A stretch of 41,478 bases of DNA, from positions 1-41,478 of IMG/VR virus record IMGVR_UViG_3300047276_000178; one strand, given 5' to 3'. A program made the position numbers and the translations under genes. Source of the DNA: a virus. How positions within the stretch are numbered: position 1 is the stretch's first letter; each line of letters starts with the position of its first letter. A model generated the notes under the pieces. That model worked only from the letters and a program-made list of their open reading frames with translations, made no database searches and was not told the DNA's origin. Of this stretch, positions 1 through 36,014 are shown piece after piece.

Positions 1-788
1 TAGCCAAATGGATACCAATGCCTGAGTTCTATCGTATCCGTGACGATGGTACAGACATGCCATGTGCGCTCATCATCGAGGAGCTATCCGATGCACCCCA
101 ACCGATGCAGAACCCCATGTGTCGTGTGATCTTGGATCACTATGCTGGCGAGCTCAAGTTGCACCCCAAGCTACACATCATTGCATCAGGTAATCGTACA
201 TCGGACAAGTCTGGTGCCAATCGCATGACTACCAAGCTATCCAATCGTATGCAAGAGTTGCAGTATGACGAGAACCTAGACGACTGGTGTGCATGGGCAT
301 TGGAGAACGACATTGCAGTCGAGCTGATTCAGTTCATTCGCTTCAGACCCAACTTGCTGTCTGACTTCGACCCCAACCGCAACATCAATCCAACACCACG
401 GACTTGGGAGTTTGCCAATCAGGTGGACACATCACTCTCATCTGATCTCTACTTCAGCAACATCGCTGGCTGTGTGGGTGAGGGTGCGGCTGCTGAGTAC
501 ACAGGCTTCAAGCGTATCTTTGAGAACTTGCCCAACATCGAGGGTATCTTGCTCAATCCATCCAAAGCGGCTGTACCAACTGACCCTGCTGTGCTGTATG
601 CATTGACTGGTGCATTGGCACACAAAGTATCCAAGGATAACTTTGACCGAGTCGCTGAGTATGTTGACCGCATGCCTGCTGACTTCCAAGTGATGTGTAT
701 CTTCGATGCACAGAAACTTAAACCCGAGATTCGCAACACCAAGGCATTCATGCAGTGGGCTGTGAAGAACGCCAACGTCTTACTGTGA
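1..788 (+). CDS. MoxR-like AAA+ ATPase, C-terminal part (cut by left window edge)
   Basis: The frame is open to the left edge (from base 3), so the Walker A region lies outside the window and the ATG at 18 is probably internal. Numbering from that ATG, a Walker B-like strand ending in two glutamates (E21-E22) is followed by a helix like the post-Walker-B helix of MoxR ATPases, and by a sensor-1-like strand ending Gly58-Asn59. The next stretch resembles the family's 'anchored' arginine region and a lid domain. MoxR ATPases typically partner VWA proteins in remodelling or metal-insertion machines. A VWA protein lies 2 kb downstream (2879-3994) in the same operon, which supports a functional pair. 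The substrate is unknown. Family assignment is fairly sure; the biological role is inference. Confidence 0.75.
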   Translation, partial: AKWIPMPEFYRIRDDGTDMPCALIIEELSDAPQPMQNPMCRVILDHYAGELKLHPKLHIIASGNRTSDKSGANRMTTKLSNRMQELQYDENLDDWCAWALENDIAVELIQFIRFRPNLLSDFDPNRNINPTPRTWEFANQVDTSLSSDLYFSNIAGCVGEGAAAEYTGFKRIFENLPNIEGILLNPSKAAVPTDPAVLYALTGALAHKVSKDNFDRVAEYVDRMPADFQVMCIFDAQKLKPEIRNTKAFMQWAVKNANVLL

Positions 789-795
789 GGCAATC

Positions 796-1239
796 ATGGG
801 GTACAGAACTGATGGCGTATGGCTGATACGCGGTACTGTGGAAGATATCACTGCCGCAATGGTGAGCGCACGAATGAACTACCCCGTCCCTGCGGGGGCG
901 GCTGACTTAGGGTTCGATGCGTTTGAGGTGTACGAAGCTAGACATGGCAACAACATAGCGGGGTACATCAAGTTTGAATTTGAGGGCTGGAAATGGTACT
1001 CAAGTTACACAGACATTCAGTGGTTAGAGCGTCTGTGGACACACTGGAGCGGGAACCCTAGGTTATCAGGGACTCGTCTTCATGTGGGTGAGGAGGAAGA
1101 CGATGTTGAAATAGACAGATTCGGGGATGACCCGACAGATGTATACATCACTCGTGAGATACATGTGGGTGAAGCCACTACTGGTAATTACTTATTTAAC
1201 AAGGAGAGCGATGATGCAATTAACTACACTGGCAGATAA
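796..1239 (+). CDS. Hypothetical protein in the ATPase/VWA module
   Basis: A 147-residue soluble protein that I do not recognise. It starts 7 bases after the ATPase stop, behind a GTGAGGC ribosome-binding-like stretch. It is rich in Trp, Tyr and acidic residues, with an acidic patch near residue 97 (several Glu/Asp in a row), and has no signal peptide or membrane segment. Its last 29 bases overlap the start of the next gene. Its place between the AAA+ ATPase and the DUF3150-like gene suggests it is co-expressed with that module, perhaps as an adaptor, but nothing in the sequence shows this. Confidence 0.7.
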   Translation: MGYRTDGVWLIRGTVEDITAAMVSARMNYPVPAGAADLGFDAFEVYEARHGNNIAGYIKFEFEGWKWYSSYTDIQWLERLWTHWSGNPRLSGTRLHVGEEEDDVEIDRFGDDPTDVYITREIHVGEATTGNYLFNKESDDAINYTGR

Positions 1240-2116
1240 GGCTATGTTGGTCAAGCTGACCACACGCAGAGCCAACTTAACAACACGCGACATGATGGCA
1301 GAGGAGTACCTGCAATCTGAATTGGGTGATACCGCATTCGTGGTAAACAAGAAACTATTTCGTGACCCGAACAATCCAGTCAATCGACTGCTTGCCAAGG
1401 CCAGTGAAATATACACCTATCACAAATCGCGCACATTGCCATACATTGACAAAGGTCCAAGGCTACTGCCCAACGAACAGTACTTCGAGTACACGCAGAG
1501 TATGCGTAGCTTGATGGCTGAAGTTGATACATACATGGCACTCATCATGCCTGACTATGACAAGTATGTGGCACTTGATGTGCAATCTAGACTGCTCGCC
1601 GATACGGGTAAGGTTAAACCTGCGAGGTATGTAGCACCAAGCCCATCGGACTATCCAACTGCTGAAGAGTTCCAAGCACGTATTGGACACGACCTACGAT
1701 TCACACCACTGCCACAAGCAAGTCACTTCCTGTTCGATATCAGTGAAGAAGACAAGCAAGCGTTCGAGGCATCCATGAATGAGGTGGCTATTCGTGCTCG
1801 TAGTGAAGTCATTAAGAAGATGATGGAACCACTCAAACACTTGGTTGACAAACTTAACAAACCCATCGGTACTGAAGGCGCGATCTTCCGCGACTCAGCA
1901 ATTCAGAACGTCATCGAAGGCGTCGAGATGGCTAAGCGGCTCAACATCGGTGGAGATAGTGATGTATCCGAGATGGCACGCGTTATCGGTGAGGCTGTCA
2001 AGCTGTTCTCTGATAACAAAGAAGTACTGCGTGAGTCACCAATCGTTCGTGAACAAGCCGCTAAGAAGCTTGACTACATCGCACAGCAGATGGGTGCACT
2101 GTACGGACAACCATGA
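1211..2116 (+). CDS. DUF3150-like phage protein
   Basis: 301 residues, mostly helical and charged. I chose the ATG at 1211 because AAGGAG lies directly upstream (1200-1205); an earlier in-frame ATG at 1127 would run 113 bases into the previous gene and lacks such a site. The central part (Pro-rich linker, then long helices around residues 170-290) resembles DUF3150, a family of unknown function that I associate with genes for AAA+ ATPases and VWA/CobT-like proteins in phages and integrative elements. That matches the neighbours here. Family assignment is by recollection of pattern and context, not by alignment. It may be the third component of the ATPase/VWA machine. Confidence 0.55.
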   Translation: MMQLTTLADKAMLVKLTTRRANLTTRDMMAEEYLQSELGDTAFVVNKKLFRDPNNPVNRLLAKASEIYTYHKSRTLPYIDKGPRLLPNEQYFEYTQSMRSLMAEVDTYMALIMPDYDKYVALDVQSRLLADTGKVKPARYVAPSPSDYPTAEEFQARIGHDLRFTPLPQASHFLFDISEEDKQAFEASMNEVAIRARSEVIKKMMEPLKHLVDKLNKPIGTEGAIFRDSAIQNVIEGVEMAKRLNIGGDSDVSEMARVIGEAVKLFSDNKEVLRESPIVREQAAKKLDYIAQQMGALYGQP

Positions 2117-2319
2117 TCTTCTCAGACTTTGAACTGATACTGATCGGAGCGTTTCTTGGGGTGGCAATCATGTACTTCAAGCAACGCATCCGTAACGAAA
2201 CTCAAGATGAGCTACTGTGGCACCTATCACGCATCATCGCAGGTGTTGCAGACAAGGAACTAACCATCAAACGCAACAACGACACCATCGAAGTGATCGT
2301 AACTAAGGAAAAAGTATGA
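2113..2319 (+). CDS. Small single-pass membrane protein
   Basis: 68 residues, starting on an ATGA overlap with the previous stop. Residues about 7-23 form a hydrophobic helix (isoleucine-, leucine- and glycine-rich) followed by a Lys/Arg-rich segment, predicting one N-terminal membrane anchor with the rest in the cytoplasm. The C-terminal part could be a short beta-hairpin. Function is unknown. Its place inside the ATPase/VWA operon raises the possibility that it tethers that complex to the membrane (inference only). Confidence 0.65.
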   Translation: MIFSDFELILIGAFLGVAIMYFKQRIRNETQDELLWHLSRIIAGVADKELTIKRNNDTIEVIVTKEKV

Positions 2320-2876
2320 GCATACACAACCAAAACATGAGTTACTGGGATGTTGCCCGACTCAGTAAACTTCCTGGGGCTACCATAACTACACATGTTG
2401 ACCCTGCGGGGTGGACTGTTCGCATGAAGAATTCAGTCAAGCGAATGATCATGGAGGGTGTAGCACGCGGTGGCTACTCATCGGTGGCTGTTACTCTAGC
2501 CAAGGGACTGGCTGACCACTATGGCATGTACATAAGACGAAGCTATGGCAGCAATGATGCCCAAGGTGAGAACTTAAATACCGCACAGATGAATGAGATA
2601 CATGCACTCATCATGGGTGACTTTGCGGCATGGCGTATGAATAACCCTGAGCAAGCATCGTACAACACATGGCGTGCCAAGCAGGTATCTACCGAGATCG
2701 AGCAGTTGTTTGAGAAGCACGCATATGACTACAACTTCTTCAACATAGTCAATGCAAGGAAAGCACGAGAGATCACCCCACTAATAAGAAGCCAAGAAGA
2801 ATTGGACAAAGCGTATCGGATTTGCGAAGCAGTTGATCGCAATGAAGTATTTACTTTCAACATAACTAAAGGTTAA
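2316..2876 (+). CDS. Hypothetical protein in the ATPase/VWA module
   Basis: 186 residues, not recognised. It begins on an ATGA overlap with the preceding stop, behind AAGGAAAAAGT. It appears soluble and mixed alpha/beta, rich in Met, Tyr and Asn, without Cys clusters or nucleotide-binding motifs. The tight spacing on both sides (overlap upstream, 2 bases downstream to the VWA gene) places it in the same transcript as the AAA+ and VWA genes. Confidence 0.7.
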   Translation: MSIHNQNMSYWDVARLSKLPGATITTHVDPAGWTVRMKNSVKRMIMEGVARGGYSSVAVTLAKGLADHYGMYIRRSYGSNDAQGENLNTAQMNEIHALIMGDFAAWRMNNPEQASYNTWRAKQVSTEIEQLFEKHAYDYNFFNIVNARKAREITPLIRSQEELDKAYRICEAVDRNEVFTFNITKG

Positions 2877-2878
2877 TC

Positions 2879-3994
2879 ATGACAACCAAACTAGACAAAG
2901 CCAAAGCGCAGATCGTACTTGATCACCCATTCTGGGCAAGCATCCTACTTAAACGCCCCATGGTTATCACACGTGATATCCCAACACTGGCAGTGGACGC
3001 AAGGGCGCGTATCTACATCAACCCTGACTTCATCGAGTCACTCACTGTCCCCCAAGTGGTGTGGGGCTTATGCCACGAGGTCGGTCACGTTATCGGTCAG
3101 CATGCACTGCGTGTCGGTACTCGCAATCGTAAGAAATGGAACTATGCAGGTGACGCTTGGATTAACGACATGCTAGACGATAGCAATGTGGGTCAGCGTA
3201 TCCCCAACACTGTGGACATGAAGGGGTCCAAGGACGATACAGTCGAGAACATCTATGACAACTTGCCCGATGGTAATGATGGTGACGGACCAACCAACGA
3301 TGGCACTGGTGATGATGTGATCTATGGTGATGGCGATAGTGGCAAGCCACTGACCCAAGATGAGATTCGTGAACTTGAAGGTCAAATCAAGATCGAGATC
3401 GCTGAAGCAGCACAAGCCGCCAAGATGCGCGGTAAGTTGTCCGCCAAGTTACAGGATATGGTTGCAGGTATGCTCGAGTCCAAGACCCCATGGTATGAGA
3501 TTCTTGAGAAGCACTGTGTGTCTCGTGTGAACCAAGGCCAATCGTGGCGTAGACCTAATCGTCGCTTTGCTGATGTGTACTTGCCTAGCGTAGATAAGCT
3601 ACCGCAGATGGGCGAACTTGTCGTGCAAGTCGATGTGTCTGGGTCCATCTCTAAGGTTGAGCTTGATCACTACAACGGTCACCTATCACGCATCATCGAG
3701 CAGTGCAGACCATCCAAGGTTCATGTTTTGTACACCGACACTGAGGTAGTCAAGCACCAAGAGTTCGATTGTGGCGAAGAAGTTAGCCTCGAGTTCTATT
3801 CAGGTGGCGGTACCCATATGCCTGCAGGCTTTGATTACTGTGCTGACCAAGGCATCGACCCCGATGTGTTTGTCTGTCTGACCGATGGCTACACAGACTT
3901 TGCAAGTGAACCTAGCTTCCCTGTCGTGTGGTGTATTAGTAGCGAGATCGAAGCGCCTTATGGTGAAAACGTCCACTTCGAACTGGAGCAATGA
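2879..3994 (+). CDS. HExxH metallopeptidase-like domain fused to VWA domain (DUF2201-type)
   Basis: 371 residues in two halves. The N-terminal half carries a zincin signature HEVGH at residues 66-70 with another His at 75, so a zinc-dependent peptidase-like site is plausible. A Gly/Asp-rich acidic linker (about residues 120-160) and a helical segment follow. The C-terminal half is a VWA domain with a MIDAS-type metal site: Asp252-x-Ser254-x-Ser256, a GGGTH turn near 312, and Thr335-Asp336-Gly337. This layout matches the DUF2201 'putative metallopeptidase plus VWA-like' family, whose members usually sit beside a MoxR ATPase, as here. Whether the peptidase site is active and what it acts on cannot be read from the sequence. 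Confidence 0.85.
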   Translation: MTTKLDKAKAQIVLDHPFWASILLKRPMVITRDIPTLAVDARARIYINPDFIESLTVPQVVWGLCHEVGHVIGQHALRVGTRNRKKWNYAGDAWINDMLDDSNVGQRIPNTVDMKGSKDDTVENIYDNLPDGNDGDGPTNDGTGDDVIYGDGDSGKPLTQDEIRELEGQIKIEIAEAAQAAKMRGKLSAKLQDMVAGMLESKTPWYEILEKHCVSRVNQGQSWRRPNRRFADVYLPSVDKLPQMGELVVQVDVSGSISKVELDHYNGHLSRIIEQCRPSKVHVLYTDTEVVKHQEFDCGEEVSLEFYSGGGTHMPAGFDYCADQGIDPDVFVCLTDGYTDFASEPSFPVVWCISSEIEAPYGENVHFELEQ

Positions 3995-4349
3995 TCGACT
4001 CGTAAGCGAGGCCCAATACAACGATGCGAGAGCAAAGACTGCGGTGCTGTACAAGTTAACCAAAGTCATGCTCCGCTTGGGCTCGTTCGACAAGATGCTC
4101 ATGAGTCATCTATACGGCCTCGACAACGGATACAGAATCAACGTAAGAGATATCAACTACACCACACCGATGGGTACAGATGCAGAGATGGTCGTTAGGC
4201 TCGGCTTGAACAACGCATCCATACCCAACATGAGTGGCTATTACAACGGACAGTGGATTACCTACACGGAGGAGATTCGACTTAATCTTCTCAAGGACAC
4301 TGTTCTGAAAGCTGGCATGGCTCTCGTTAGACATGCAATTTATTTTTAA
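3960..4349 (+). CDS. Hypothetical protein following the VWA gene
   Basis: About 129 residues if translated from the ATG at 3960, which overlaps the VWA gene by 35 bases. A longer version from 3885 would overlap by 110 bases and is less likely. No good ribosome site is visible for either, so the start is uncertain, and a non-ATG start further in is possible. The protein is soluble with a helical N-terminal half (lysine/leucine-rich) and a Tyr/Asn-rich middle. I do not recognise it. Confidence 0.55.
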   Translation: MVKTSTSNWSNDRLVSEAQYNDARAKTAVLYKLTKVMLRLGSFDKMLMSHLYGLDNGYRINVRDINYTTPMGTDAEMVVRLGLNNASIPNMSGYYNGQWITYTEEIRLNLLKDTVLKAGMALVRHAIYF

Positions 4350-4370
4350 TCTTGGGGTTTGTCCCTATTG

Positions 4371-4385
4371 ATTATCACGGATAAT
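4371..4385. repeat. Perfect short palindrome upstream of the 4419 gene
   Basis: ATTATC-acg-GATAAT: two perfect 6-base arms around a 3-base centre, in the 69-base gap before the gene at 4419. It could be an operator half-site pair. The right arm GATAAT also matches five of six bases of a sigma70 -10 box, but no convincing -35 box lies 16-18 bases upstream. Function is not established. Confidence 0.4.
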
Positions 4386-4418
4386 GACTTAAACTTACTA
4401 ACTAAACGGAGCAACACC

Positions 4419-5063
4419 ATGGCTTATGTAGCTATTAGCAACCAACTGCTGGACGAAGTTCGCAGCAAGATCAATCGCATGAAAGAAGCGGAGGTCAATT
4501 CAATTCCTGAAGTCACGGACAACTTGGCGTTCAACTATGTTCCAACTGATTTCGAAAAATTAGTTTGGGGCGAACACTACCACTTGAAAGACGTCATTCC
4601 ATCATCGTGGAAACGCAATGTCGGTGAACTGTGTGGCGTGGCAGAGTATGAGCATAACGGTCACGGTATGAAGACTCGCTTGTTCATCAAGTTAGCCAAC
4701 AAGATTGGCGTACCACTTGACCAAAACAGCTACACGGCATACTTCTCGATGACTGAAGAGCATCCTGACATGGCCCCCATCATTCAGCGTGACAAGCAAG
4801 TTGATGACATCAATATTAAGTGGAATGCAATCAGCAGTAAGATTCGCGACTTCTTAGTCAACTGCAAATCACTTAACGAGGCAGTCAAGCTGTGGCCTGA
4901 TGTACGCATCTATATCCCTGAATCTTACATGAAGCGTATGTTGGCTAAGTCTGAGCGCACTGCTGAGAAGATCAGCAAGGCATCGGAATTCCTTAAACAA
5001 ATTGACACAGACAATGCCGTAGCTGCGGCAGTCGGTGCACGTATGGCAGGAGCCAAACTATGA
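4419..5063 (+). CDS. Hypothetical phage protein
   Basis: 214 residues from the ATG at 4419, preceded by a CGGAGC ribosome-binding-like stretch. A TTG at 4359 would add 20 residues but reads across the palindrome and has no such site. The sequence is helical and charged, with a compact middle region and a long C-terminal helix ending in an Ala-rich stretch. No catalytic or nucleotide-binding signature is evident, and I cannot assign a family. Its stop is part of an ATGA overlap with the 57-codon gene that follows, so they are probably co-translated. Confidence 0.7.
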   Translation: MAYVAISNQLLDEVRSKINRMKEAEVNSIPEVTDNLAFNYVPTDFEKLVWGEHYHLKDVIPSSWKRNVGELCGVAEYEHNGHGMKTRLFIKLANKIGVPLDQNSYTAYFSMTEEHPDMAPIIQRDKQVDDINIKWNAISSKIRDFLVNCKSLNEAVKLWPDVRIYIPESYMKRMLAKSERTAEKISKASEFLKQIDTDNAVAAAVGARMAGAKL

Positions 5064-6784: not shown

Positions 6785-6948
6785 ACTTATCACAAGAAAA
6801 GTTAGCCGATGGCATGGTCGGTGAACTCTTGGCGGTAATCGACAAGTACGAGGACTCAATGATCTTGCCAACCGTACTTGGCATTCTAGATATCGTGAAG
6901 GTTTACCTTATGCAAGAACACTTCGAGGACGATGAAGATGAAGATTGA
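6781..6948 (+). CDS. Small acidic helical protein
   Basis: 55 residues from the ATG at 6781, which overlaps the previous stop as ATGA; a longer start at 6748 is less likely. It is a short Leu/Ile-rich helical protein ending in a run of Asp/Glu. Not recognised. The stop overlaps the glutaredoxin gene by 17 bases. Confidence 0.55.
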   Translation: MNLSQEKLADGMVGELLAVIDKYEDSMILPTVLGILDIVKVYLMQEHFEDDEDED

Positions 6949-7165
6949 AATTTACACAAAACATAACTGCCCCAACTGTGTGATGGCTAAGCAACTGCTT
7001 AATGCAAATAACTTGGACTACACTGAATTGGATGTTAGTGAACCTGACGTTATGCTGCAGCTGATCATGCGTTATCCTGATGTGCGTCAGATGCCACAGA
7101 TATTCATTGATGACCAACGTGTTGGCGGACTTGCGGGGCTACAAGCCGCATTGGAACAGCTATGA
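6932..7165 (+). CDS. Glutaredoxin
   Basis: 77 residues, the usual length of a phage or bacterial class I glutaredoxin. A thioredoxin fold is evident: first strand, Cys13-Pro-Asn-Cys16 redox motif at the start of helix 1, the cis-proline strand (Met-Pro-Gln-Ile-Phe-Ile) and a Gly-Gly turn near the C terminus. It would supply reducing equivalents, for example to a ribonucleotide reductase, but no reductase gene lies in this window. ATG at 6932 or at 6938 are both possible starts. Confidence 0.88.
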   Translation: MKMKIEIYTKHNCPNCVMAKQLLNANNLDYTELDVSEPDVMLQLIMRYPDVRQMPQIFIDDQRVGGLAGLQAALEQL

Positions 7166-7257
7166 CATGGCCTTTTCCACCGTTTCCTAATCCGAAACAC
7201 AAAGACCAACGCAAGCCTAAGTTCAACCCTGAGAACGAAGAAGACGCCCCTGTATGA
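7162..7257 (+). CDS. Tiny proline-rich protein (31 aa)
   Basis: A 31-codon frame that starts on an ATGA overlap with the glutaredoxin stop and ends on an ATGA overlap with the next start. The N-terminal half is Pro/Phe-rich and the C-terminal half basic, then acidic. It is too short to assign; the double start-stop coupling is the main evidence that it is translated. It may serve mainly to carry ribosomes to the next gene. Confidence 0.45.
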   Translation: MTWPFPPFPNPKHKDQRKPKFNPENEEDAPV

Positions 7258-7502
7258 AAAGTAACCACAACACCATCCGAAAAGTTTTGATAGAGCATCC
7301 GGATGGTTTGACATCACGACAAATTTCAGAGATGACTGGAATCAGTTATCGCTCAGTTAGGAAGTCACTTGAATCTGTATTTGGTGTCTATATTGATCGG
7401 TATATCACGGCAAGGTACAGGAATAACTTGACAGCGGTGTGGGTTGTTGTCGACGTACCTGATAACTGCCCCAAGCCCGACCACATTAGGAACAAAAAAT
7501 GA
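7254..7502 (+). CDS. Helix-turn-helix DNA-binding protein
   Basis: 82 residues. Residues about 6-45 form a classic small HTH: a helix, 'Gly-Leu-Thr-Ser-Arg-Gln-Ile-Ser', a turn at 'Met-Thr-Gly-Ile', then a recognition helix 'Tyr-Arg-Ser-Val-Arg-Lys-Ser-Leu', followed by a possible two-strand wing. It is small enough to be a transcriptional regulator consisting only of the DNA-binding domain. It sits immediately before, and overlaps by ATGA, the DNA polymerase gene. The target is not evident. Confidence 0.7.
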   Translation: MKSNHNTIRKVLIEHPDGLTSRQISEMTGISYRSVRKSLESVFGVYIDRYITARYRNNLTAVWVVVDVPDNCPKPDHIRNKK

Positions 7503-9349
7503 AATACATTACACTGGATTTTGAGACCTACTACTCAAAAGAGTTTAGTCTGTCCAAGATGACAACCGAGGCGTACATACGTGACCCGCAGTTCGAGGTG
7601 ATTGGCTTCTCGTACAAGATCAACACTGAGCCTGCCAAGTGGGTGACTGGTTCCAATGGCGAGATCGCTATGGCACTGGAAGAGTTGGACATTCCAAACA
7701 GCTACTTGATCTGTCACAACATGGCGTTCGATGGAGCCATCCTTGCTTGGCGTTACAACATCATGCCCAAGTACTATTTAGATACGCTGTCCATGGCGCG
7801 ACCTATCACAGGCTTGACTGTCGGTGGTTCACTCAAGGCATTGGCTGACAAGTATGACATCGGGCAAAAAGGCACAGAGGTAGTAAATGCGCTTGGTAAA
7901 AGACGCAGTAATTTTACCCCTGAGGACCTTGCCAAGTACGGTGACTACTGCAACAACGATACAGAACTTACTTGGACTTTGTACAACATCCTGAAGAAAG
8001 ACAACCCTCCCAAGGAACTGTATATACAAGACCTGATGATACGCATGTTCACTGACCCAGTGCTTGAGTTGGATAAGGATGTATTGATTGCTCACCTGAA
8101 CAGTGTGCAAGACAAGAAAGCCAAACTGATGGAGCGTATTGACCTGTCGATTGGTAGAGATGCACTCATGTCCAACCCACAGTTTGCTGAAGTGCTGAAG
8201 AAGTTAGGCGTTGAGCCGCCAGTCAAGACAAGCCTGCGCACTAATAAAGAAGCGTATGCGTTCAGTAAGACTGACTACGAGTTCAAGGCACTGCTTGAGC
8301 ATCCCAACACTGCAGTACAAGCTGTCGTTGCGGCACGACTTGGAATTAAATCCACACTGGAAGAAACGAGGACCGAATCGTTTTTGGGTATCGCTGATCG
8401 CGGGGCACTGCCAATCCTCTTGAACTACTGGGGTGCGCACACTGGTCGTGCATCGGGTGGTGACAAGATGAACTTGCAGAACCTGCCAAGGGGCGGTGCA
8501 CTTAGGCGTTCAATCACAGTACCTGAGAACCATGTACTTGTTGCAGTGGACTCAGCGCAGATTGAAGCACGAGTTGTCGCGTGGCTGGCGGGCCAAGAAG
8601 ACTTGCTTGTTGACTTCCGCAACAGCGTGGATATTTATTCTAAGTTCGCATCGATCGTGTACGGCAAGCCTGTCACCAAAGCAGACAAGGTTGAACGGTT
8701 TGTTGGTAAGACCTGTATCTTGGGCCTAGGCTATGGCATGGGACCTGATAAGTTCCAAGGTACATTGAAGATTGGTCAAGGTGGTATCTCAGTTGATATG
8801 GACGCGGGTGAAGCCAAGAAAACGGTGAATACATACCGAACCAAGTACGCCATGATTGCCGAGCTGTGGAAGGATGCGCAGAAGGCACTGGACAAAATGG
8901 CACAGGGCTATGAGACCACGTTCGGTGTTGGCATCGAGTTACGCTGTACACCTGAAGGCATCCACTTACCCAACGGCACAATGATTCGTTACCCTGAACT
9001 GAGTAAGTCCGGTGACGGATGCGAGTACAAAGGTCGCTATGGTCCTGTCAAGATATACGGTGGTAAGGTAGTTGAGAACGTAGTCCAAGCACTTGCCAGG
9101 ATTGTTGTGTTCGATCAGATGGCGAAGATCGACATGGAGATGCGCAAGAACGACAACCCACTAGCCGACTGCCGATACAAAGTTGCTCTGACTGTGCACG
9201 ATGAGGTGGTGTGTGTAGTTCCACGAAGTGCCGCACAGTGGGCGCTTGAGTTTATGACGACCACAATGTCAGTGCCTCCGAAGTGGTGTGCCAACTTGCC
9301 AGTGTCGTGTGAAGGAGACATTGGAAATAATTATGCAGATGCCAAATAA
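7499..9349 (+). CDS. Phage-type family A DNA polymerase
   Basis: 616 residues. An N-terminal 3'-5' exonuclease domain shows Asp7-x-Glu9 (Exo I), a His-Asn-x-x-Phe-Asp segment (Exo II) and a Tyr-Cys-Asn-Asn-Asp helix (Exo III). The polymerase domain carries motif A (Asp351 in 'Val-Asp-Ser-Ala-Gln-Ile-Glu'), motif B (Lys404 with Tyr412 in the O-helix-like 'Leu-Gly-Leu-Gly-Tyr-Gly') and motif C (His567-Asp568-Glu569). The 5'-3' exonuclease of cellular Pol I is absent, as usual in phages. It is the replicative polymerase. All catalytic residues expected are present. Translation is coupled to the HTH gene by ATGA. Confidence 0.96.
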   Translation: MKYITLDFETYYSKEFSLSKMTTEAYIRDPQFEVIGFSYKINTEPAKWVTGSNGEIAMALEELDIPNSYLICHNMAFDGAILAWRYNIMPKYYLDTLSMARPITGLTVGGSLKALADKYDIGQKGTEVVNALGKRRSNFTPEDLAKYGDYCNNDTELTWTLYNILKKDNPPKELYIQDLMIRMFTDPVLELDKDVLIAHLNSVQDKKAKLMERIDLSIGRDALMSNPQFAEVLKKLGVEPPVKTSLRTNKEAYAFSKTDYEFKALLEHPNTAVQAVVAARLGIKSTLEETRTESFLGIADRGALPILLNYWGAHTGRASGGDKMNLQNLPRGGALRRSITVPENHVLVAVDSAQIEARVVAWLAGQEDLLVDFRNSVDIYSKFASIVYGKPVTKADKVERFVGKTCILGLGYGMGPDKFQGTLKIGQGGISVDMDAGEAKKTVNTYRTKYAMIAELWKDAQKALDKMAQGYETTFGVGIELRCTPEGIHLPNGTMIRYPELSKSGDGCEYKGRYGPVKIYGGKVVENVVQALARIVVFDQMAKIDMEMRKNDNPLADCRYKVALTVHDEVVCVVPRSAAQWALEFMTTTMSVPPKWCANLPVSCEGDIGNNYADAK

Positions 9350-17850: not shown

Positions 17851-20800
17851 TTATGTAGTTGAGCCTACTTGCTCGGTAAACCTACGATTCGATTTAGTGG
17901 TTTCTACACCACCAACAACACCACGTTCACGCTTACGCGCTTCAGCGGGTGCACGGAACAACTCAGTTGGTAACTGACGCTTGTATCCATTTCTTACTCT
18001 CGACTCCTGCAACTTTTGCCAGTCATCACGCGCCTCAGCCATAGTCGCTGTGTCGTTTGATCGAGAGCCTTCCACATACATTGCTTTAATTTCTTTTGCG
18101 CGGTCTGCGTAAAACTTATCAAACTCGGCAACCACTTTCTGAGTGAATTGTCTGTCTGTAACGGTCGAAGTGGGGAGACCAACCAGTTGGAAACCAGCAT
18201 CAATCATGCTGACTTCATCAGGACTCATCACCAAATCCCCATTGCGCATCGTAATCCCTTGGGTTGGGAAACGATATGCTTTCATCACATTGGCTACGCC
18301 ATTAGGCATTGCCATCTCTAAGCCCTTGTAGTAGTTGCCTTTGGAAATCAAATCCAACGCATCTGCAAACTTCAGCCCCATACTTGCGGCTGGGCCCATC
18401 ATACCCACCAACATCTTCTCAGCACCGGAGCGGGAAGCCAAGTCAGGTTCAACGAATGGACCGAATGGAGACGCAACGTTTTCCATGGACAGCTTCTTGC
18501 CCAAAGACTCCAAACCAAAATAAGCAGGCACACCACGAAGCAACAGGTCAGCGGCAGGGCCGTCACCTATCATGCGACGTAATTTGTACTCGTAGTCATC
18601 GGGTTCATCGGGGTCACCAAACGCTTTCGATGCAAGCCAAGCAATCTGTGAAACAAACGGCACGCCCAATGCACCGCCAAGAACTGCCATGTGCGCAACA
18701 ATGAATCTTAATGAAGCAAACGCTACAGCTTTTTCTTCTTTACTTGCGCCACGGAAGGAGTTGTTAATCAACTTAATCAACATGGACAACTGAATAATTT
18801 GGAAGCGTTTGAATTGCCCCAATAAAGAAGCTGTGTTTCCTTGCAGTATGCGAGGCGCACTTGTGGAAGTGTATGAACCGTGAGTATTGTCAATAACTTC
18901 AGCAGCGTACTTGGTAGCAGCAGCCGTATCACCGTTCTTATAACGCTCAAGGTATCCACGATAAGCAGCCACGGCAGCGGCAGCACGGTTGATTGATTCA
19001 ATACGTGTATTGACACCTTTGAGTTTAGCCATGGCTATCTCGAAGGGACCGCGTTCTTCTGTGCGTGCCTTGATGTCTGTCTCAATACCAATGTCGATCT
19101 TACCCATGCCAACCAATGTGTTGAGCATATTGCGCACATCAGAGGGAGCTTGGTTAAAGTCAATGTGGCCTTCAATCCCAATGTCTTTGGTCAATGGGGC
19201 AATATCGCTGTAGGCACGCTTAAGCGCACGACCTGTACGGAAGTAACCAAGACGTCCTGCCATGTATGGCTGAGAAAGCACCATGGTCTGCACCATCTGC
19301 TGGAGATAGAACGCTGGGTTAGTGGACAAAGTCCACAGACTTGTCATGCGTGTTAAGGCAGTTACCAAGTCGCTGACTGGTTTGTAATCCATACTGAGCG
19401 CATTGCGGGCATACAACTCGTTGTACAGGGGGCGTGCTTCTTTCAAATTCTTCTGAGCTTCGACACGCATTGACTCTAATGAATCAGAGATGGCATCGTT
19501 ACTTGCCATGGAAGCCAAGAAGTGTGCATCGGCACGGCCACTGGTAGCCAAGTTGCGCATCATGTTCTTAGAAGCACCAGCCACATTCTTACGTTGACGG
19601 GCACTGGACTCAGCCACAACCATTAGATACAGATCACCAATAGCTTTGGTCAAAGCAGGATTAGTATCCTCACCACCGCGCTCAGCCATGCCGCGCAAGC
19701 GAGACAGACCATACATTAAATCAGCACCACCTGCGTAAGACGCATGAGCTTCTTTTTCCGCAGCGTCTTCGGGTTGCACATCATATTGACCAGTTGCGCC
19801 CAGTTGAGCAGCAATTTCATCCGCTTCAGCTTGTGTCTCAGCAAATTCCACAACGTAATGGTTGGGGTCTGAGATGTGGTCTTGCAACCAGTTTTTGGCC
19901 TGCTGTGGGTCACCAATGATTGAGTTATCTTTGGTGCGGCTTTCTGTTCCTGAAGCAGCTTTTTCGTATGCAATAAACTCAGGTGACTTGGCGACCACTA
20001 CATAGTTTCCGTAGCGTCCAAGATATGCGTAAGGATTACCGACCTGTACTTGTTGCAAGCTGGCGATGCGTTTGAGCGCACTTGCCTTTTCTTTGGCAAT
20101 CTTATCCAACAGATCAGCATCATTGGCTGCAGCTTTTTCGCGTGATTCATATTCACGGTCGACAGCATCTCTAGCCGCTTGCTTCTTCATTTGCAATGCT
20201 TGGTATCCATGCTCAAATACATCTTTAATGAGCTGAGCAGCCGCAGGACTTTGCGCTTGAATTTTATTAAACCGTTCTTCAAAGTCTGGGTCGACCTCAA
20301 ACAACTTAGTACCCACTTGATGTTCACCGGGGTAGTAGCCCCACTTCTTCTCACGAGTGGAATCAAAAATAAATTCATTGACGCTACCAGAGCCTTCGCC
20401 TTTTAGATTGGCAGGCAGTCTGTCATAAGCAGTCAGAATTTTGTTGATGCGGTTTTCAAACTGAACACGTGTGGCATACCGAGCGTACTGTGCATCCAAA
20501 TACTTGGTTGCCGATGGCATAAACTTCTTAGCCATACTGACAATGTCTTCAGTCATTGCCGCAGAATATAAACCCTTCTTAGCTGCGCTAAGTAGGTTGG
20601 TCACAACATTACGAACTGGCTTTCGTAATACCCGTGGTAGTGCGCTGATTACAGTGTCTGTTGTAGATGGTGCGTTAACACCGAACTTCATAGCCATACC
20701 AGTTTTATCTACCAACAATGTAGCATTGCTGTCTAATTCTAGTTTGGGAAGTGTAGTAGCCAGTTTATCTACTGGTACAGTAAGTCGACCTTCCACCATA

Positions 20801-23800
20801 CGGGCTTCTTGTTCACCTGCAATTCCATAATACAAGTAACTTCGCATCTGCTCTTCTGTAATTTTGTACAGTTCTAGAGCTTGCTGTGCCTTTAAAACAT
20901 AAGTGTCTACCGCCCTGTCTAAATTCATTTGCAGCCCTGCAGTTTTTACAGGATCAGTGTTTAAGACTAACTGCAATTGAGCTTCGTTGACCAGATCATC
21001 ATACCGCGCTATGTGAGAGAGTATTTTTTCAATAGCAAGCGCTGCTTTTTGCTGACCCGTCTGTCGCAAAATAGCTTCAAACTTAACGAAAGAAACTATA
21101 GAGAGTGGATCAGCAATATGGTTTGGTGACCCGCCGGGATCAAAACCTTCAATCTGTTGAATAGCGTGTTGGATTTCATGTAGTAATGTAGGCATGTCAT
21201 CTGGATACTGCCCAGACATTGTTATACGCCCATTGAACGGATCAAAACTGGCATTTTTTGGTGGCATATCTGCATCAAAAACTAAAGTATAGTCTTTGAG
21301 CTGAGGGTACGCTTTAAATAAAGCTGGGTGCTCAAGAACATCCTGCAGCTCGTAGTCGTGGTCAATTTCGACTCTGTCGTTTTTGAATGGTTTAAATTTG
21401 GCATTGGTGTCGGGAATTTCATATTTCCATTTCCCATCTATGCCTTTAAACCAGCCGGTTTCAACCCACATTTTGTCTTCTGTGGCACCTGCAGCAAACA
21501 TCAATTTGGCTTTAACCAATTGAGCTTTAAGCTTATCAGTTTCAGCAGGGTCTAAATTATAGAATGAACGTTGCCCAGCAATGCCAAACTGTGTGCGATT
21601 TGCAGTAGACATGTTGCGCTGTGCGTCTGACATTTCAATTTTTGCAGCACCATAAGCCATGTTAACCACGTCTTGTGCAGTCAATTTATCGGTTCTAAAA
21701 CCAAGCTTACGTGCAATGGCTTGAATGGCTGACCACAAAGTGCGAAACCAAGTAGCTAACGGGCCAGTTAACTTTCCTGATGCAGCTGGATCAATACCAG
21801 CCAGCATGGATTCTTCAACAAAATATGCCAACAATTCTGCAGGTTTATCTTGAGTTTCAGTTTGAGCAGCATCTACTCGTGCTTGAGCTTTCTTGGCTAT
21901 ACGGGACTCAAGTGAATTGTCTTTGGATGCAACCCAACGGGCTAACTGCGCAGTAAGTTGATCGTAAACAACTTTGGGCAGTAATTTTTCTAAACCCAAA
22001 TGGGCTCCGACTTCGTGCATAAATTTAGCACGACCTTCGCCTTTACTGATGCGGTTGGCAATCAGATACGCAGTGCCGTTTGCTGCAACACCATAAGCAC
22101 CTTTATTGCCAATAGCTTTGGCAAGGTTCTGTAGGTCTGCTGAATTTGAATTTGCTAAGTCTTCTAAGCTACCAACAATAACCAGTTTGCGACCAAGGAT
22201 GTCTGCACGAATAAAGTCTTTAATGTCTTTGACCAGTTCAGCAGCAGTGTATGGATTAGTGGCTACACCGTCTTTACCAAACTTGGGGTTTACCGCTTCA
22301 GCAGTTCCATTAGTGCCTGTTGCCTCAGGCTTTTCGTTGGCCAATGTTGTGCCAGCAGGTTGAGGCTTCTCACCGACAATTTTGACAGCAGCCGCAAGGT
22401 TAGCTTGTCCACGATGGACGAGATCATCCCACCGAGTTTTTTCAGATTTTGCAAGAAGGTCATATGGTGGCAACTCCGGTGCTAGTTTAGATACTTCAGA
22501 CCACTGCTCAGCAGGAGTCTTTACTTCTTCGGGCTTGGCTTCTTGCTTGGGCTCGACTTTGACTTCAGTTTTTCCGGCAGGCTTTTTAGGTTTGGCGTTT
22601 CCTTTGCCCACCTTTTTGCCACCTCCGGCTGATTGGCGAACATTTCCCTCATCTGCGCTTTCGACTTGAACGGCATTACCTTCTCCTTCTTCGGTTACAG
22701 CAGCTTCGCCTTTGGCTCTGCGTTTCTCTTGGCCTTTGGCATAGTCTGCCCACAGCTTCTGAAGCTGTTCTGCTTTGGCAGCACGACGTGGGTCTTTAGG
22801 AGGCATTGCTTCCAACTCAGCCTGTAGTTTTTCAACTTTGGCAAAGAACGCAGCACCTTCACTATCTACAGCACCTTGGCTACCACCAGCGGTGGACACC
22901 ATGCCCATGGTCTGACCCTCAGCGTTTTCTTTACCGCCAAGTTCTTCTTGGAGCTTGGCTCCAGGTTTGCCTTCTTGTTCTCCAGCTTCAAGTTCTTCTG
23001 CTAATGATGCGGCAGATTGCTCTTCACCTTCGTAACGAGTATTATATAGACCAGCCAACTCACCTTGACCAATGCCATCGGGGAATTCAGGTGCTCTATA
23101 TGCAGCAGCGGCTTCGACAAAACGTGCGGCAAACGCAGGGTCTACTACTTGGAATTCGCCATCGACCAACTTAACGCCCATGCGTTCCAGTTGTTTTTCA
23201 ACAGCGTCAACTTTAAGTCCTGTGTACGCTGCAATATCTGCATGACGAAACTGCTCAAGCAAAGCCAAGCGAAGGATTTCTGCACGCTTTTCAGCGGGTA
23301 CAGTATTAGTCCGGTTTTGGATTGGGGCCAAAACACGTAGCAGCAAATCAGAGATTAGCTGGACGCGACGCTCGCTTGAGATGTGGCTAAGGTCGGTTGA
23401 GTAGAAGCTGATGCGGGGGTCGTATGTGCGTGGGCCATTCTGTACAGATTGTTGATCCACGTTGGGTGTACCGGCTTGCTGGGATTGACCGGATGTTTCC
23501 CCGCCACCCAAAGCGCTTTGGCTGGCTTGTTCACTTGTAGCTCCAGTTACTTGCGACGGCGCGTTACCATTGCCAACATTGGCATCTGCACTGGTGCCAG
23601 TCCGTATTCCTTCTCCTGATAACTGTCCAGTTTGGAGACCAAGCGATCCTTCAGGGACACTTCCTGATTGGACGGATTGAACTCCGCTGGGTTGTACAGT
23701 CCCATCTGCTGTTGCAGTTGTTTCTCCTGTTCCGCCTTCGACTGGAACTGTTCCCAGCCCGGTAGTTGTTTGCAGTGGCAGTTTTCCATCTTTAGCTCCT

Positions 23801-25623
23801 TTTTCCGCTTTAGCGGTTTGTGCTGCGATAAATCCATCTGTATCTTGACCAGTAATGGCTTCGTAGATGGCGTTGAGTTGCTCCAGTTGATTACCTTTGG
23901 TAGTCGTCGAGAGTTTGTTAAGAATCTGTACGGCCTCATCCAATGATTGAACGTGGTCAATCTGGAACTTGGTCATGGTTTTACCCAAAGCAGCAATAGC
24001 TTTTTCAGCGGAACCGCGTGGGTTTGTGGCATTGAAACTGAAGCTGACCAAGGGGCTTGGCTTTTCAGGTGTTGCAAACGCTTTGTTTGCTTGCACAATT
24101 GCTTTAGCAATCTGCTGCACATGAGGAGGCAGTGTATTGAATACATCTGCAAACCGGTTACCAAATGGCGCAATACGTGGGCCAGTGATTGTCTGACCAA
24201 AAATGCTTACCGTATCAGGCGAATACTCAGAAGCCAATACACCAAGAACATCGTCACGCTTGGCTTGTTGCTGTTGGGCAATTTCAGCTTGTTGGTTTTG
24301 TGCCGCAGCAGCTTGAGACTGCTGAGCAATATCAGTTGTACCACCTGTAACAGCAGGCGGTGTCATGTTTGCCACTTGGGCTTTGAGTGCTTTGTACTCT
24401 TGCTGTTCTTCAGGTGTAAAGAAACGACCTTCAGTGGCTGGAATTTTTAATGGTTGACCATCGGGGCCTTCCACGGTGCGTGCAGGTGTGCCTCTACCGA
24501 TTGCTTCCAACTCAGCCAAACGTGCCATGGGGTCTGGGTGGTTTGCTGGCGTAATAGGGGGCGTAACGGGTGGGGCTACATTGGCAGTAGGTGTACCACT
24601 AACTTCGGGCTGGCTAAATGCTTGTTGAACTTCGTTAGTAGGAGCACTTCTTCTCCAACCACCAAGACCGCCACCCATCAACCCGCCAAGGGTTGCGCCA
24701 CCAATAAACGATTCTTTATATCGCTCAAGGGCTTCAGGGTCAGTCAATGTAGCATTGGGGTCTACAGCCATGCGGCCTGCTTGGTTCAATACCTCTTGAC
24801 CAGTTTCTGAAATACCTTCTTTAAGCGCAACACCAGTGCCTGTGGCAACAGTACGAGTGGCAGCACCTAAGATACCACCGGGGCGGTCTAACAGATTGAC
24901 TGTGTTTTTAAATGCACTACCGCGCATCAAAGCAGTACCAACACCTAAAGCATTTAAACCTGCATAAGGAATAGCCAATGCCCCAGCAGCCAATAAATCT
25001 GTCTTGCCACTTTGCTCACGCTGGTTACTCAGGATATCACCAACAGCAGATGGATATGACGCAGCTACGCCACCAACAGTAGACCCAAGGTCAAGAGCTT
25101 TTTTAGCTGCAGCTGCTTCTTCAATTGTTTTGGCACCAGTCAATGCAGCACGAGTGCCAGACATCAAACCCCGTGCAGCTAAACCACCTGTTAGTGCTTC
25201 AGCAGCGTAAGGCGCAGATTGGATTGCTAAGTTTTTTGCATAACTTCCAAAATCACCAATGCCTTCGACGTCTTTCCATTCAGTAACAGCACCCATTTCA
25301 CGGGCACGAGCAGACGCTACATCAGCCTGAAGTTCATTTGCACGACGTTGTTCAGCAAGCCAGTTGCTTGCTCTCTTAGCACCAAGTGCCCCAGTTACAG
25401 CTTCGCCAACGCCGTAAAGCCCGGCTTGGTATCGGTCGATAGACGACGAAAGTTCTTTAGCACCAATGCCCCCAGTACCGGGGTCATAGCCAAGGGTCAT
25501 AGCTACTTCAGTAGGCGGCAGCTTGGCCACCTTTGAGTACATGGAAATAATGTCTTCGTTTGAAGCGTCTTTCCAATCGGGCCCTGCCCAGCTACGCAGT
25601 TCGTCTATCGAGCGAATTGGCAT
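17851..25623 (-). CDS. Giant polyvalent virion-type protein with two HExxH metallopeptidase-like motifs
   Basis: 2590 residues. Visible layout: an N-terminal helical domain; Ala/Gly-rich hydrophobic stretches (about 170-330) able to insert into membrane; a Pro/Gln-rich linker (about 335-460); Gly/Ser/Thr/Gln low-complexity region (about 640-740); a Glu/Lys-rich region (about 930-1060); His1203-Glu-x-x-x-His1208 with a downstream helical bundle; a 'Thr-Gly-Trp-Phe-Lys-Gly' domain with His1482-Glu-Ile-Gln-His1486 and a distal 'Gly-Glu1604-Gln-Glu-Ala-Arg' motif, as in LPD23-type polyvalent domains; long helical C-terminal domains (from about 2050) resembling LPD38. Such proteins are carried in the virion and injected, and are thought to protect or modify after entry. 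The gene follows two internal-virion-like genes. Domain names are from memory of motifs. Confidence 0.8.
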   Translation of the reverse strand: MPIRSIDELRSWAGPDWKDASNEDIISMYSKVAKLPPTEVAMTLGYDPGTGGIGAKELSSSIDRYQAGLYGVGEAVTGALGAKRASNWLAEQRRANELQADVASARAREMGAVTEWKDVEGIGDFGSYAKNLAIQSAPYAAEALTGGLAARGLMSGTRAALTGAKTIEEAAAAKKALDLGSTVGGVAASYPSAVGDILSNQREQSGKTDLLAAGALAIPYAGLNALGVGTALMRGSAFKNTVNLLDRPGGILGAATRTVATGTGVALKEGISETGQEVLNQAGRMAVDPNATLTDPEALERYKESFIGGATLGGLMGGGLGGWRRSAPTNEVQQAFSQPEVSGTPTANVAPPVTPPITPANHPDPMARLAELEAIGRGTPARTVEGPDGQPLKIPATEGRFFTPEEQQEYKALKAQVANMTPPAVTGGTTDIAQQSQAAAAQNQQAEIAQQQQAKRDDVLGVLASEYSPDTVSIFGQTITGPRIAPFGNRFADVFNTLPPHVQQIAKAIVQANKAFATPEKPSPLVSFSFNATNPRGSAEKAIAALGKTMTKFQIDHVQSLDEAVQILNKLSTTTKGNQLEQLNAIYEAITGQDTDGFIAAQTAKAEKGAKDGKLPLQTTTGLGTVPVEGGTGETTATADGTVQPSGVQSVQSGSVPEGSLGLQTGQLSGEGIRTGTSADANVGNGNAPSQVTGATSEQASQSALGGGETSGQSQQAGTPNVDQQSVQNGPRTYDPRISFYSTDLSHISSERRVQLISDLLLRVLAPIQNRTNTVPAEKRAEILRLALLEQFRHADIAAYTGLKVDAVEKQLERMGVKLVDGEFQVVDPAFAARFVEAAAAYRAPEFPDGIGQGELAGLYNTRYEGEEQSAASLAEELEAGEQEGKPGAKLQEELGGKENAEGQTMGMVSTAGGSQGAVDSEGAAFFAKVEKLQAELEAMPPKDPRRAAKAEQLQKLWADYAKGQEKRRAKGEAAVTEEGEGNAVQVESADEGNVRQSAGGGKKVGKGNAKPKKPAGKTEVKVEPKQEAKPEEVKTPAEQWSEVSKLAPELPPYDLLAKSEKTRWDDLVHRGQANLAAAVKIVGEKPQPAGTTLANEKPEATGTNGTAEAVNPKFGKDGVATNPYTAAELVKDIKDFIRADILGRKLVIVGSLEDLANSNSADLQNLAKAIGNKGAYGVAANGTAYLIANRISKGEGRAKFMHEVGAHLGLEKLLPKVVYDQLTAQLARWVASKDNSLESRIAKKAQARVDAAQTETQDKPAELLAYFVEESMLAGIDPAASGKLTGPLATWFRTLWSAIQAIARKLGFRTDKLTAQDVVNMAYGAAKIEMSDAQRNMSTANRTQFGIAGQRSFYNLDPAETDKLKAQLVKAKLMFAAGATEDKMWVETGWFKGIDGKWKYEIPDTNAKFKPFKNDRVEIDHDYELQDVLEHPALFKAYPQLKDYTLVFDADMPPKNASFDPFNGRITMSGQYPDDMPTLLHEIQHAIQQIEGFDPGGSPNHIADPLSIVSFVKFEAILRQTGQQKAALAIEKILSHIARYDDLVNEAQLQLVLNTDPVKTAGLQMNLDRAVDTYVLKAQQALELYKITEEQMRSYLYYGIAGEQEARMVEGRLTVPVDKLATTLPKLELDSNATLLVDKTGMAMKFGVNAPSTTDTVISALPRVLRKPVRNVVTNLLSAAKKGLYSAAMTEDIVSMAKKFMPSATKYLDAQYARYATRVQFENRINKILTAYDRLPANLKGEGSGSVNEFIFDSTREKKWGYYPGEHQVGTKLFEVDPDFEERFNKIQAQSPAAAQLIKDVFEHGYQALQMKKQAARDAVDREYESREKAAANDADLLDKIAKEKASALKRIASLQQVQVGNPYAYLGRYGNYVVVAKSPEFIAYEKAASGTESRTKDNSIIGDPQQAKNWLQDHISDPNHYVVEFAETQAEADEIAAQLGATGQYDVQPEDAAEKEAHASYAGGADLMYGLSRLRGMAERGGEDTNPALTKAIGDLYLMVVAESSARQRKNVAGASKNMMRNLATSGRADAHFLASMASNDAISDSLESMRVEAQKNLKEARPLYNELYARNALSMDYKPVSDLVTALTRMTSLWTLSTNPAFYLQQMVQTMVLSQPYMAGRLGYFRTGRALKRAYSDIAPLTKDIGIEGHIDFNQAPSDVRNMLNTLVGMGKIDIGIETDIKARTEERGPFEIAMAKLKGVNTRIESINRAAAAVAAYRGYLERYKNGDTAAATKYAAEVIDNTHGSYTSTSAPRILQGNTASLLGQFKRFQIIQLSMLIKLINNSFRGASKEEKAVAFASLRFIVAHMAVLGGALGVPFVSQIAWLASKAFGDPDEPDDYEYKLRRMIGDGPAADLLLRGVPAYFGLESLGKKLSMENVASPFGPFVEPDLASRSGAEKMLVGMMGPAASMGLKFADALDLISKGNYYKGLEMAMPNGVANVMKAYRFPTQGITMRNGDLVMSPDEVSMIDAGFQLVGLPTSTVTDRQFTQKVVAEFDKFYADRAKEIKAMYVEGSRSNDTATMAEARDDWQKLQESRVRNGYKRQLPTELFRAPAEARKRERGVVGGVETTKSNRRFTEQVGSTT

Positions 25624-35658: not shown

Positions 35659-36014
35659 TTCAGATTCCGTAATTTATACAGGGTACTCAAGTATTCTGCA
35701 ACAGCTTCATCGATAATATTTTGAAGCGCTGTGTCAGTTTTTTGAACAGCGGTATAGCGCATTTTTTCAACTGAGTCTAGATGACGTGCGAGTACATCAG
35801 CTGGTTCACCCATATCTGTTTCTTCCAACATAGGAATATCGTCAATGATCCCATGACGACCTTGGTAGGCTTCCGTCAATGAATCTGCAATGTCCACGAT
35901 GCTAGAATAAAAATCACCCAGTGCCATATGCTGGGCGTAGCTTGTAGTGCGCAGGTGCGCTCTATGCGCATATTCACGGCTTAAGAACAGCAGTGCAATA
36001 AGGCGTCCAATCAT
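35655..36014 (-). CDS. DUF5856-like four-helix protein
   Basis: 119 residues from the ATG at 36014 (ATGA overlap with the preceding stop). Its early 'Arg-Glu-Tyr-Ala-His-Arg-Ala-His-Leu' helix, then 'His-Met-Ala-Leu-Gly-Asp-Phe-Tyr' and a second acidic helix resemble the ferritin/Dps-like DUF5856 proteins that I recall from T4-like and T7-like aquatic phages. His and Glu/Asp side chains could bind metal. Role unknown. A longer start at 36098 would overlap the glycosyltransferase gene by 88 bases. Confidence 0.65.
   Translation of the reverse strand: MIGRLIALLFLSREYAHRAHLRTTSYAQHMALGDFYSSIVDIADSLTEAYQGRHGIIDDIPMLEETDMGEPADVLARHLDSVEKMRYTAVQKTDTALQNIIDEAVAEYLSTLYKLRNLK

Follow-up and report, generated by a model that had tools for sequence, protein, structure and literature searches.

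Of the gene sets in N4-like phages that lack an explanation, one of the best conserved is a pair encoding an ATPase and a peptidase-VWA protein, a core gene set with no known function (PMC4193335, PMC2784036, PMC7650795). The sole published proposal that we found for this pair, made for jumbo phages, is a role in virion assembly (PMC7824862). A 41,478-base IMG/VR virus record, which we analysed at its full length and refer to as the window, carries such a pair at positions 1-3994, embedded in a module of six genes. Which of these genes belong together, and what might their products do for the phage? To answer these questions, we analysed the six proteins, their homologs and the surroundings of these homologs in phages, plasmids and bacteria.

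Gene content of the module

The preliminary description of this DNA had recognized six tightly coupled genes, and these are indeed found as six tightly packed ORFs on the + strand. The module and its two metal-binding motifs are laid out as follows:

3..788, + strand: ATPase (core 1), C-terminal 261 aa; the 5' end is lost at the contig start
796..1239, + strand: orf2 (accessory), 147 aa, function not assigned; no match in Pfam or PHROG
1214..2116, + strand: orf3 (core 2), DUF3150-family protein by profile homology, 300 aa; alternative start at 1211
2113..2319, + strand: orf4 (accessory), 68 aa single-pass membrane protein with one hydrophobic stretch
2316..2876, + strand: orf5 (accessory), 186 aa, function not assigned; no family matches
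2879..3994, + strand: orf6 (core 3), fusion of a zincin-like metallopeptidase (DUF2201_N) and a VWA domain (DUF2201) by Pfam, 371 aa
3074..3088, + strand: HEVGH zinc motif of orf6, residues 66-70, conserved in alignments
3632..3646, + strand: MIDAS motif DVSGS of orf6, residues 252-256, completed by T312 and D336

The genes orf2 and orf3 overlap, and ATGA junctions link orf3 to orf4 and orf4 to orf5. With dN/dS values of 0.04-0.12, the ATPase, orf3 and orf6 are under strong purifying selection; the corresponding values are 0.10-0.29 for orf2, 0.00-0.14 for orf4 and 0.22-0.36 for orf5. Judged by these substitution patterns, all six ORF products evolve as real proteins, the accessories included.

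The accessory genes have a narrow distribution. Homologous ORFs were found 10 times for orf2, 17 times for orf4 and 18 times for orf5 among the loci, in close relatives only, and all three genes are missing from more distant loci. The small single-pass membrane protein is present as described, in the form of orf4 with a single hydrophobic helix near its N-terminus, but the suggestion that it and the two uncharacterized proteins are parts of the machine is not supported, since they are confined to near relatives. Going by this distribution, the putative machine would comprise only three of the six gene products, and orf2, orf4 and orf5 are lineage-specific accessories.

The three core proteins

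The Walker A motif of the ATPase, whose absence from the full-length protein would have spoken against the preliminary interpretation, lies beyond the start of this contig. It is found on another contig (L002), which is 99.96% identical to positions 1-4500 of the window and encodes the full ATPase of 334 aa (L002:4906-5910) with an intact GKPGGGKS, and it is conserved in relatives. The protein matches the PHROG 1297 ATPase family (8e-61). In searches against PDB sequences, narrow alignments yielded chance matches only and the wide ATPase alignment alone was informative: the profile of the family finds midasin (1.7e-33) and NorQ/CbbQ (~7e-7), and NorQ is among the bacterial structures nearest to the ATPase by sequence. 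Residues P28, G29, G31, K32, N137, R155 and R206 are invariant. With its Walker A motif, its conserved arginines and its kinship to MoxR, NorQ and midasin, the protein is thus a MoxR-class AAA+ ATPase, as had been supposed.

The product of orf6 scores well above the Pfam cut-offs for both of its DUF2201 domains (PF13203 and PF09967), DUF2201_N with 5.4e-41 and DUF2201 with 1.7e-18 (141 and 67 bits against cut-offs of 23 and 26). Its MIDAS is complete (D252-x-S254-x-S256/T312/D336) and invariant in 27 close and 13 divergent members. In the zinc site, H66, E67 and H70 form the HExxH motif typical of zincins, and H75, D92 and N96 are conserved downstream of it; all six residues are invariant in the 13 divergent members and nearly so in 117 sequences. 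The fusion with intact HEVGH and MIDAS is therefore borne out by domains and residues alike. An AF2 model (pLDDT 78) has VWA folds among its top PDB matches, and the fold search with this model returned solely VWA folds, at low TM-score. In many phage records, this family goes under the name ‘HNH endonuclease’, apparently a spreading misannotation. We rejected this label, which is also attached to PHROG 1314: the conserved histidines are those of the HExxH in the DUF2201_N domain.

Some of the bacterial and plasmid homologs among the 117 sequences have lost zinc residues and kept the MIDAS. Losses occur at the loci L093 (HD), L105 and L115, whereas L096, L097 and L099 lack H66, E67, H70 and D92 altogether; the latter homologs lie at about 6848-8236 of their loci, and the group as a whole comes from the Paraburkholderia group and other bacteria. 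As D92 is lost jointly with the HExxH residues in these three, it is likely the third zinc ligand, and the zinc-site-loss homologs are likely pseudo-peptidases. Since several plasmid homologs have given up the zinc site but not the MIDAS, proteolysis does not seem to be an indispensable step everywhere, and some relatives apparently do without clipping. Where the site is intact, the earlier idea that proteolysis is the end point appears plausible.

The assignment of orf3 to DUF3150 required a chain of homology, because a direct match was absent: Pfam and NCBIfam searches of the window family gave no DUF3150 call, and none of 28 members matched PF11348 at E <= 5. With hhalign, however, the orf3 family aligns over its full length with the DUF3150 protein of a Cupriavidus plasmid (99.2%, E 1.5e-19), which itself matches PF11348 at 1e-4, slightly below the cut-off. 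Related DUF3150 proteins of other phyla match PF11348 at 2e-12 and 6e-10, and one DUF3150 family profile retrieves direct PF11348 matchers. Judged by these intermediates, orf3 is a true, remote DUF3150 homolog, and the tentative label it had been given was correct. The protein is predicted to be all helical (AF2 pLDDT 62, a low confidence). DUF3150 is named in no paper of the literature that we searched, which left subscription journals mostly uncovered.

Linkage of the core genes in viruses

To see whether the core genes travel together, we collected viral loci by their VWA protein or by DUF3150, and considered those testable that extend 2.5 kb to either side of DUF3150. In all 44 testable loci, both the ATPase and the peptidase-VWA gene accompany DUF3150, and they do so in three different arrangements: ATPase-DUF3150-VWA in 39 loci, ATPase-VWA-DUF3150 in four and DUF3150-ATPase-VWA in one. 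Within the lineage of the window, all three genes are found in 10 of 11 large contigs, the exception being a 34 kb fragment. That the linkage withstands such reshuffling argues strongly for a joint function, and the gene neighbourhoods thus show that the ATPase, DUF3150 and the peptidase-VWA protein belong together. The viruses that carry the trio are a group of water-dwelling phages.

The pair also occurs by itself. In ten named phages, the ATPase and the peptidase-VWA protein are present and DUF3150 is not detectable; a wide DUF3150 profile gave a best E-value of 0.37 against nine named phages (N4 and eight others). Two neighbouring genes considered as hidden DUF3150 candidates, CRP-7 gp16 and RHph EVB41_056, are unrelated to it. 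DUF3150 is therefore not always needed. In phylogenetic trees, lineages with and without DUF3150 do not separate cleanly.

In the window phage, the module is encoded on the same strand as DNA polymerase, helicase and primase, and the structural genes and the endolysin on the opposite strand, which fits the early region to which the module had been attributed. Likewise, in phages nACB1, 1.238.B, SBP1 and RHph_TM3_14A, the homologous genes directly precede genes for a helicase and/or a DNA polymerase. The last of these, a Rhizobium phage, has the DNA polymerase nearest to that of the window phage (38%). Three further genes of this genome deserve mention. A small thioredoxin/glutaredoxin-like protein (6932-7165, + strand; PHROG 22) is encoded near the polymerase gene, and a protein with a beta-1,4-glycosyltransferase PHROG match (3e-96) among the structural genes (36011-37567, - strand). 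About one fifth of the contig is taken up by the gene for a giant protein of 2,590 residues (17851-25623, - strand), whose PHROG matches are DarB-like and unknown, with ‘DarB-like antirestriction’ in its C-terminal part.

Plasmid and bacterial homologs

The trio is not confined to viruses. DUF3150 occurs on 42 plasmid records, 16 of which are typed as conjugative. The plasmid regions that we read all show the order ATPase-DUF3150-VWA, and the core genes are adjacent in three of the four (Cupriavidus, Burkholderia and Rhodovastum); on the Simplicispira plasmid, small genes are inserted after the ATPase. The compact trio is found on Burkholderiales plasmids. Within a bacterial set of 79 loci retrieved by DUF3150 alone, the branch that has the trio shows the ATPase gene on the upstream side in 55 of 56 testable cases and the VWA gene on the downstream side in 59 of 60. 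Scattered homologs would have contradicted a joint function; instead, they are co-located across viral and bacterial loci.

On plasmids, the trios lie near a PRTRC (ThiF/JAB) cassette and not near replication genes. The PRTRC ThiF gene was found over cut-off in all 15 sampled Burkholderiales genomes and shares a contig with the DUF2201 gene of the trio in 4/4 genomes that we cross-checked. Searches for JAB and ThiF in the window phage and six relatives found neither.

A second DUF3150 branch comprises proteins from Planctomycetes, Deltaproteobacteria and Bacteroidota. Here, DUF3150 adjoins a Cdc48-like AAA gene in every one of the 15 loci whose upstream side is included and lies near DUF1257, in some loci together with SSB, PD-(D/E)XK and UvrD genes, in others with JAB and ThiF. 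The conserved cassettes of L136, L137, L140 and L142, for example, encode a Cdc48-like AAA protein, DUF1257, DUF3150, SSB, a SWIM-type protein, a PD-(D/E)XK nuclease and a UvrD helicase. These loci resemble the trio in that DUF3150 adjoins an AAA+ ATPase, but this ATPase is of another family, and DUF2201 was not found over cut-off in any of nine second-branch genomes tested.

Relation to known systems

The two-gene core has known counterparts. The gp24/gp25 genes of N4-like phages (Schitoviridae) encode a homologous AAA+ ATPase and a zincin-VWA protein with HExxH and MIDAS, and share the replication-side position; unlike in the trio, DUF3150 is not detectable in N4 and the eight other phages mentioned above, and gp25 bears the database label ‘HNH endonuclease’, which its sequence does not support. 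A homologous pair is also encoded by the jumbo phage PA5oct, and the group 2.2 jumbo phages have the same MoxR-vWA pair with an N-terminal metallopeptidase fusion; the passages of that article that we consulted (PMC7824862) mention neither DUF3150 as a third component nor copies on plasmids nor altered gene orders. Functional-genomics literature that we searched for phage MoxR/VWA genes does not mention them.

Among cellular systems, NorQ/NorD and midasin share the homologous ATPase (1.7e-33 to midasin, 6e-7 to NorQ) and a VWA domain with a full MIDAS, but in the trio the VWA domain is fused to a zincin and DUF3150 is added. The activity of NorQD depends on the MIDAS of its VWA subunit, which binds to the ring (PMC9976466). 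The ternary MoxR-vWA conflict systems (Kaur et al. 2020, PMC7159879) likewise combine MoxR, VWA and a third gene; here, however, this gene is DUF3150 rather than VMAP, the carriers are phages and plasmids, and the peptidase is conserved in the VWA protein. None of the six genes has a VMAP-type Pfam match, PADLOC gave no meaningful match, and the ATPase-VWA pair belongs to the core genes of N4-like phages, so that the proposed tie to NTP-dependent conflict systems finds no support. What remains of the preliminary interpretation is its centre: the MoxR-like ATPase, its peptidase-VWA partner and DUF3150 are a real, conserved unit, whereas the accessory genes and the conflict-system connection fall away. 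New with respect to the known pair are the third component, the linkage that persists through reshuffling, the sharing with plasmids and the evidence that speaks against a general role in virion assembly.

A putative machine and its target

With moderate confidence, we propose that the ATPase, DUF3150 and the peptidase-VWA protein make up one ATP-driven remodelling and clipping machine, whose target is met during genome establishment or replication. Because the ATPase is kin to midasin and NorQ, we picture a ring-shaped motor that would grip by means of the VWA domain, clip by means of the zincin and have DUF3150 as its adaptor. The ATPase would form a ring like its MoxR, NorQ and midasin relatives, on which the VWA domain would dock to grip a protein target via its metal site. 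DUF3150, which is helical and stands beside two different AAA+ motors, could be the adaptor that couples motor to target, and in members that retain the zinc site, the peptidase domain would clip the remodelled target. This target may be a protein that the element encounters while it establishes or replicates its genome, since phages have the trio in their replication arm and plasmids carry it too, and since genes for SSB, a nuclease and a UvrD helicase neighbour the second DUF3150 family. The replication link is thus drawn from position and from the sharing between phages and plasmids. The plasmid trios with their PRTRC surroundings, and the phages that have the pair without DUF3150, weigh against this reading.

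The same position and sharing could also mean that the trio is directed, soon after a phage infects or a plasmid enters, at a protein of the host or of an anti-element system, such as a nuclease or a restriction or other defence complex, which it would unfold and clip. Phages and plasmids face the same defences, and counter-defence genes are also carried on phage replication arms. Furthermore, zinc-site losses are found only in bacterial and plasmid members and in none of the aligned viral ones, and the window phage also encodes the DarB-like giant protein. However, PADLOC and Pfam give no defence or counter-defence match, the core dN/dS values show no sign of an arms race, and membership in the core set of N4-like phages (PMC4193335, PMC7650795) sets the pair apart from most counter-defence genes, which are patchy. 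We therefore regard such a target as possible, if on the unlikely side; the dismantling of a host complex or a competing element, as first envisaged, is likewise no more than possible.

That the proteins serve as a chaperone and peptidase in the building and processing of the capsid or tail seems unlikely. The jumbo-phage proposal argues for it by analogy with an archaeal-virus MoxR-VWA pair (Iyer et al. 2021, PMC7824862), and in N4-like roseophages virion proteins are encoded near the gp24/25 homologs (PMC4193335). Yet the three core genes also reside on conjugative plasmids, which make no virions, and in the window phage they share the replication strand, opposite the structural genes; in N4, the gp24/gp25 homologs are middle and not late genes (PMC4193335). 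Plasmid carriage and the place in the replication arm thus argue against this role, and a trio that stays together even on plasmids points instead to a machine that acts on proteins in the service of mobile DNA. We give still less credence to a chaperone that inserts metal cofactors into a metalloprotein of the element or the host, in the manner of NorQD or the CobST/ChlID chelatases, a very improbable reading even though NorQ is one of the bacterial structures that come nearest in sequence and MoxR-VWA pairs are known for such work (PMC9976466). No annotated gene for cofactor biosynthesis or a metalloenzyme lies beside the copies that we read. To our knowledge, a fused zincin is not part of NorQD or of the CobST/ChlID chelatase systems. 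Finally, DUF3150 and the small genes might be mere passengers beside the ATPase-peptidase pair, which many phages have without DUF3150. This fits the membrane protein and the two uncharacterized proteins, which are lost in distant relatives, but for DUF3150 it is disfavoured by the co-occurrence in 44/44 loci, which persists through three gene orders and recurs from phages to plasmids and bacterial contigs, and as an account of the whole it would come as a great surprise.

Returning to the proposed remodelling machine, DUF3150 might even be a general AAA+ adaptor of mobile elements, serving a MoxR-like ring with a zincin-VWA protein in one branch and a Cdc48-like ring beside JAB/ThiF or SSB/UvrD in the other; the plasmid trio would then perhaps work with the ubiquitin-like PRTRC (ThiF/JAB) proteins as a proteasome-like system for tagged proteins. 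We offer this as speculation that may well prove wrong. For the pair itself, the constant third partner and its presence on conjugative plasmids open the virion-assembly proposal to testing and make it unlikely to hold in general. DUF3150 thereby gains a first functional context, in a trio that is tractable for reconstitution.
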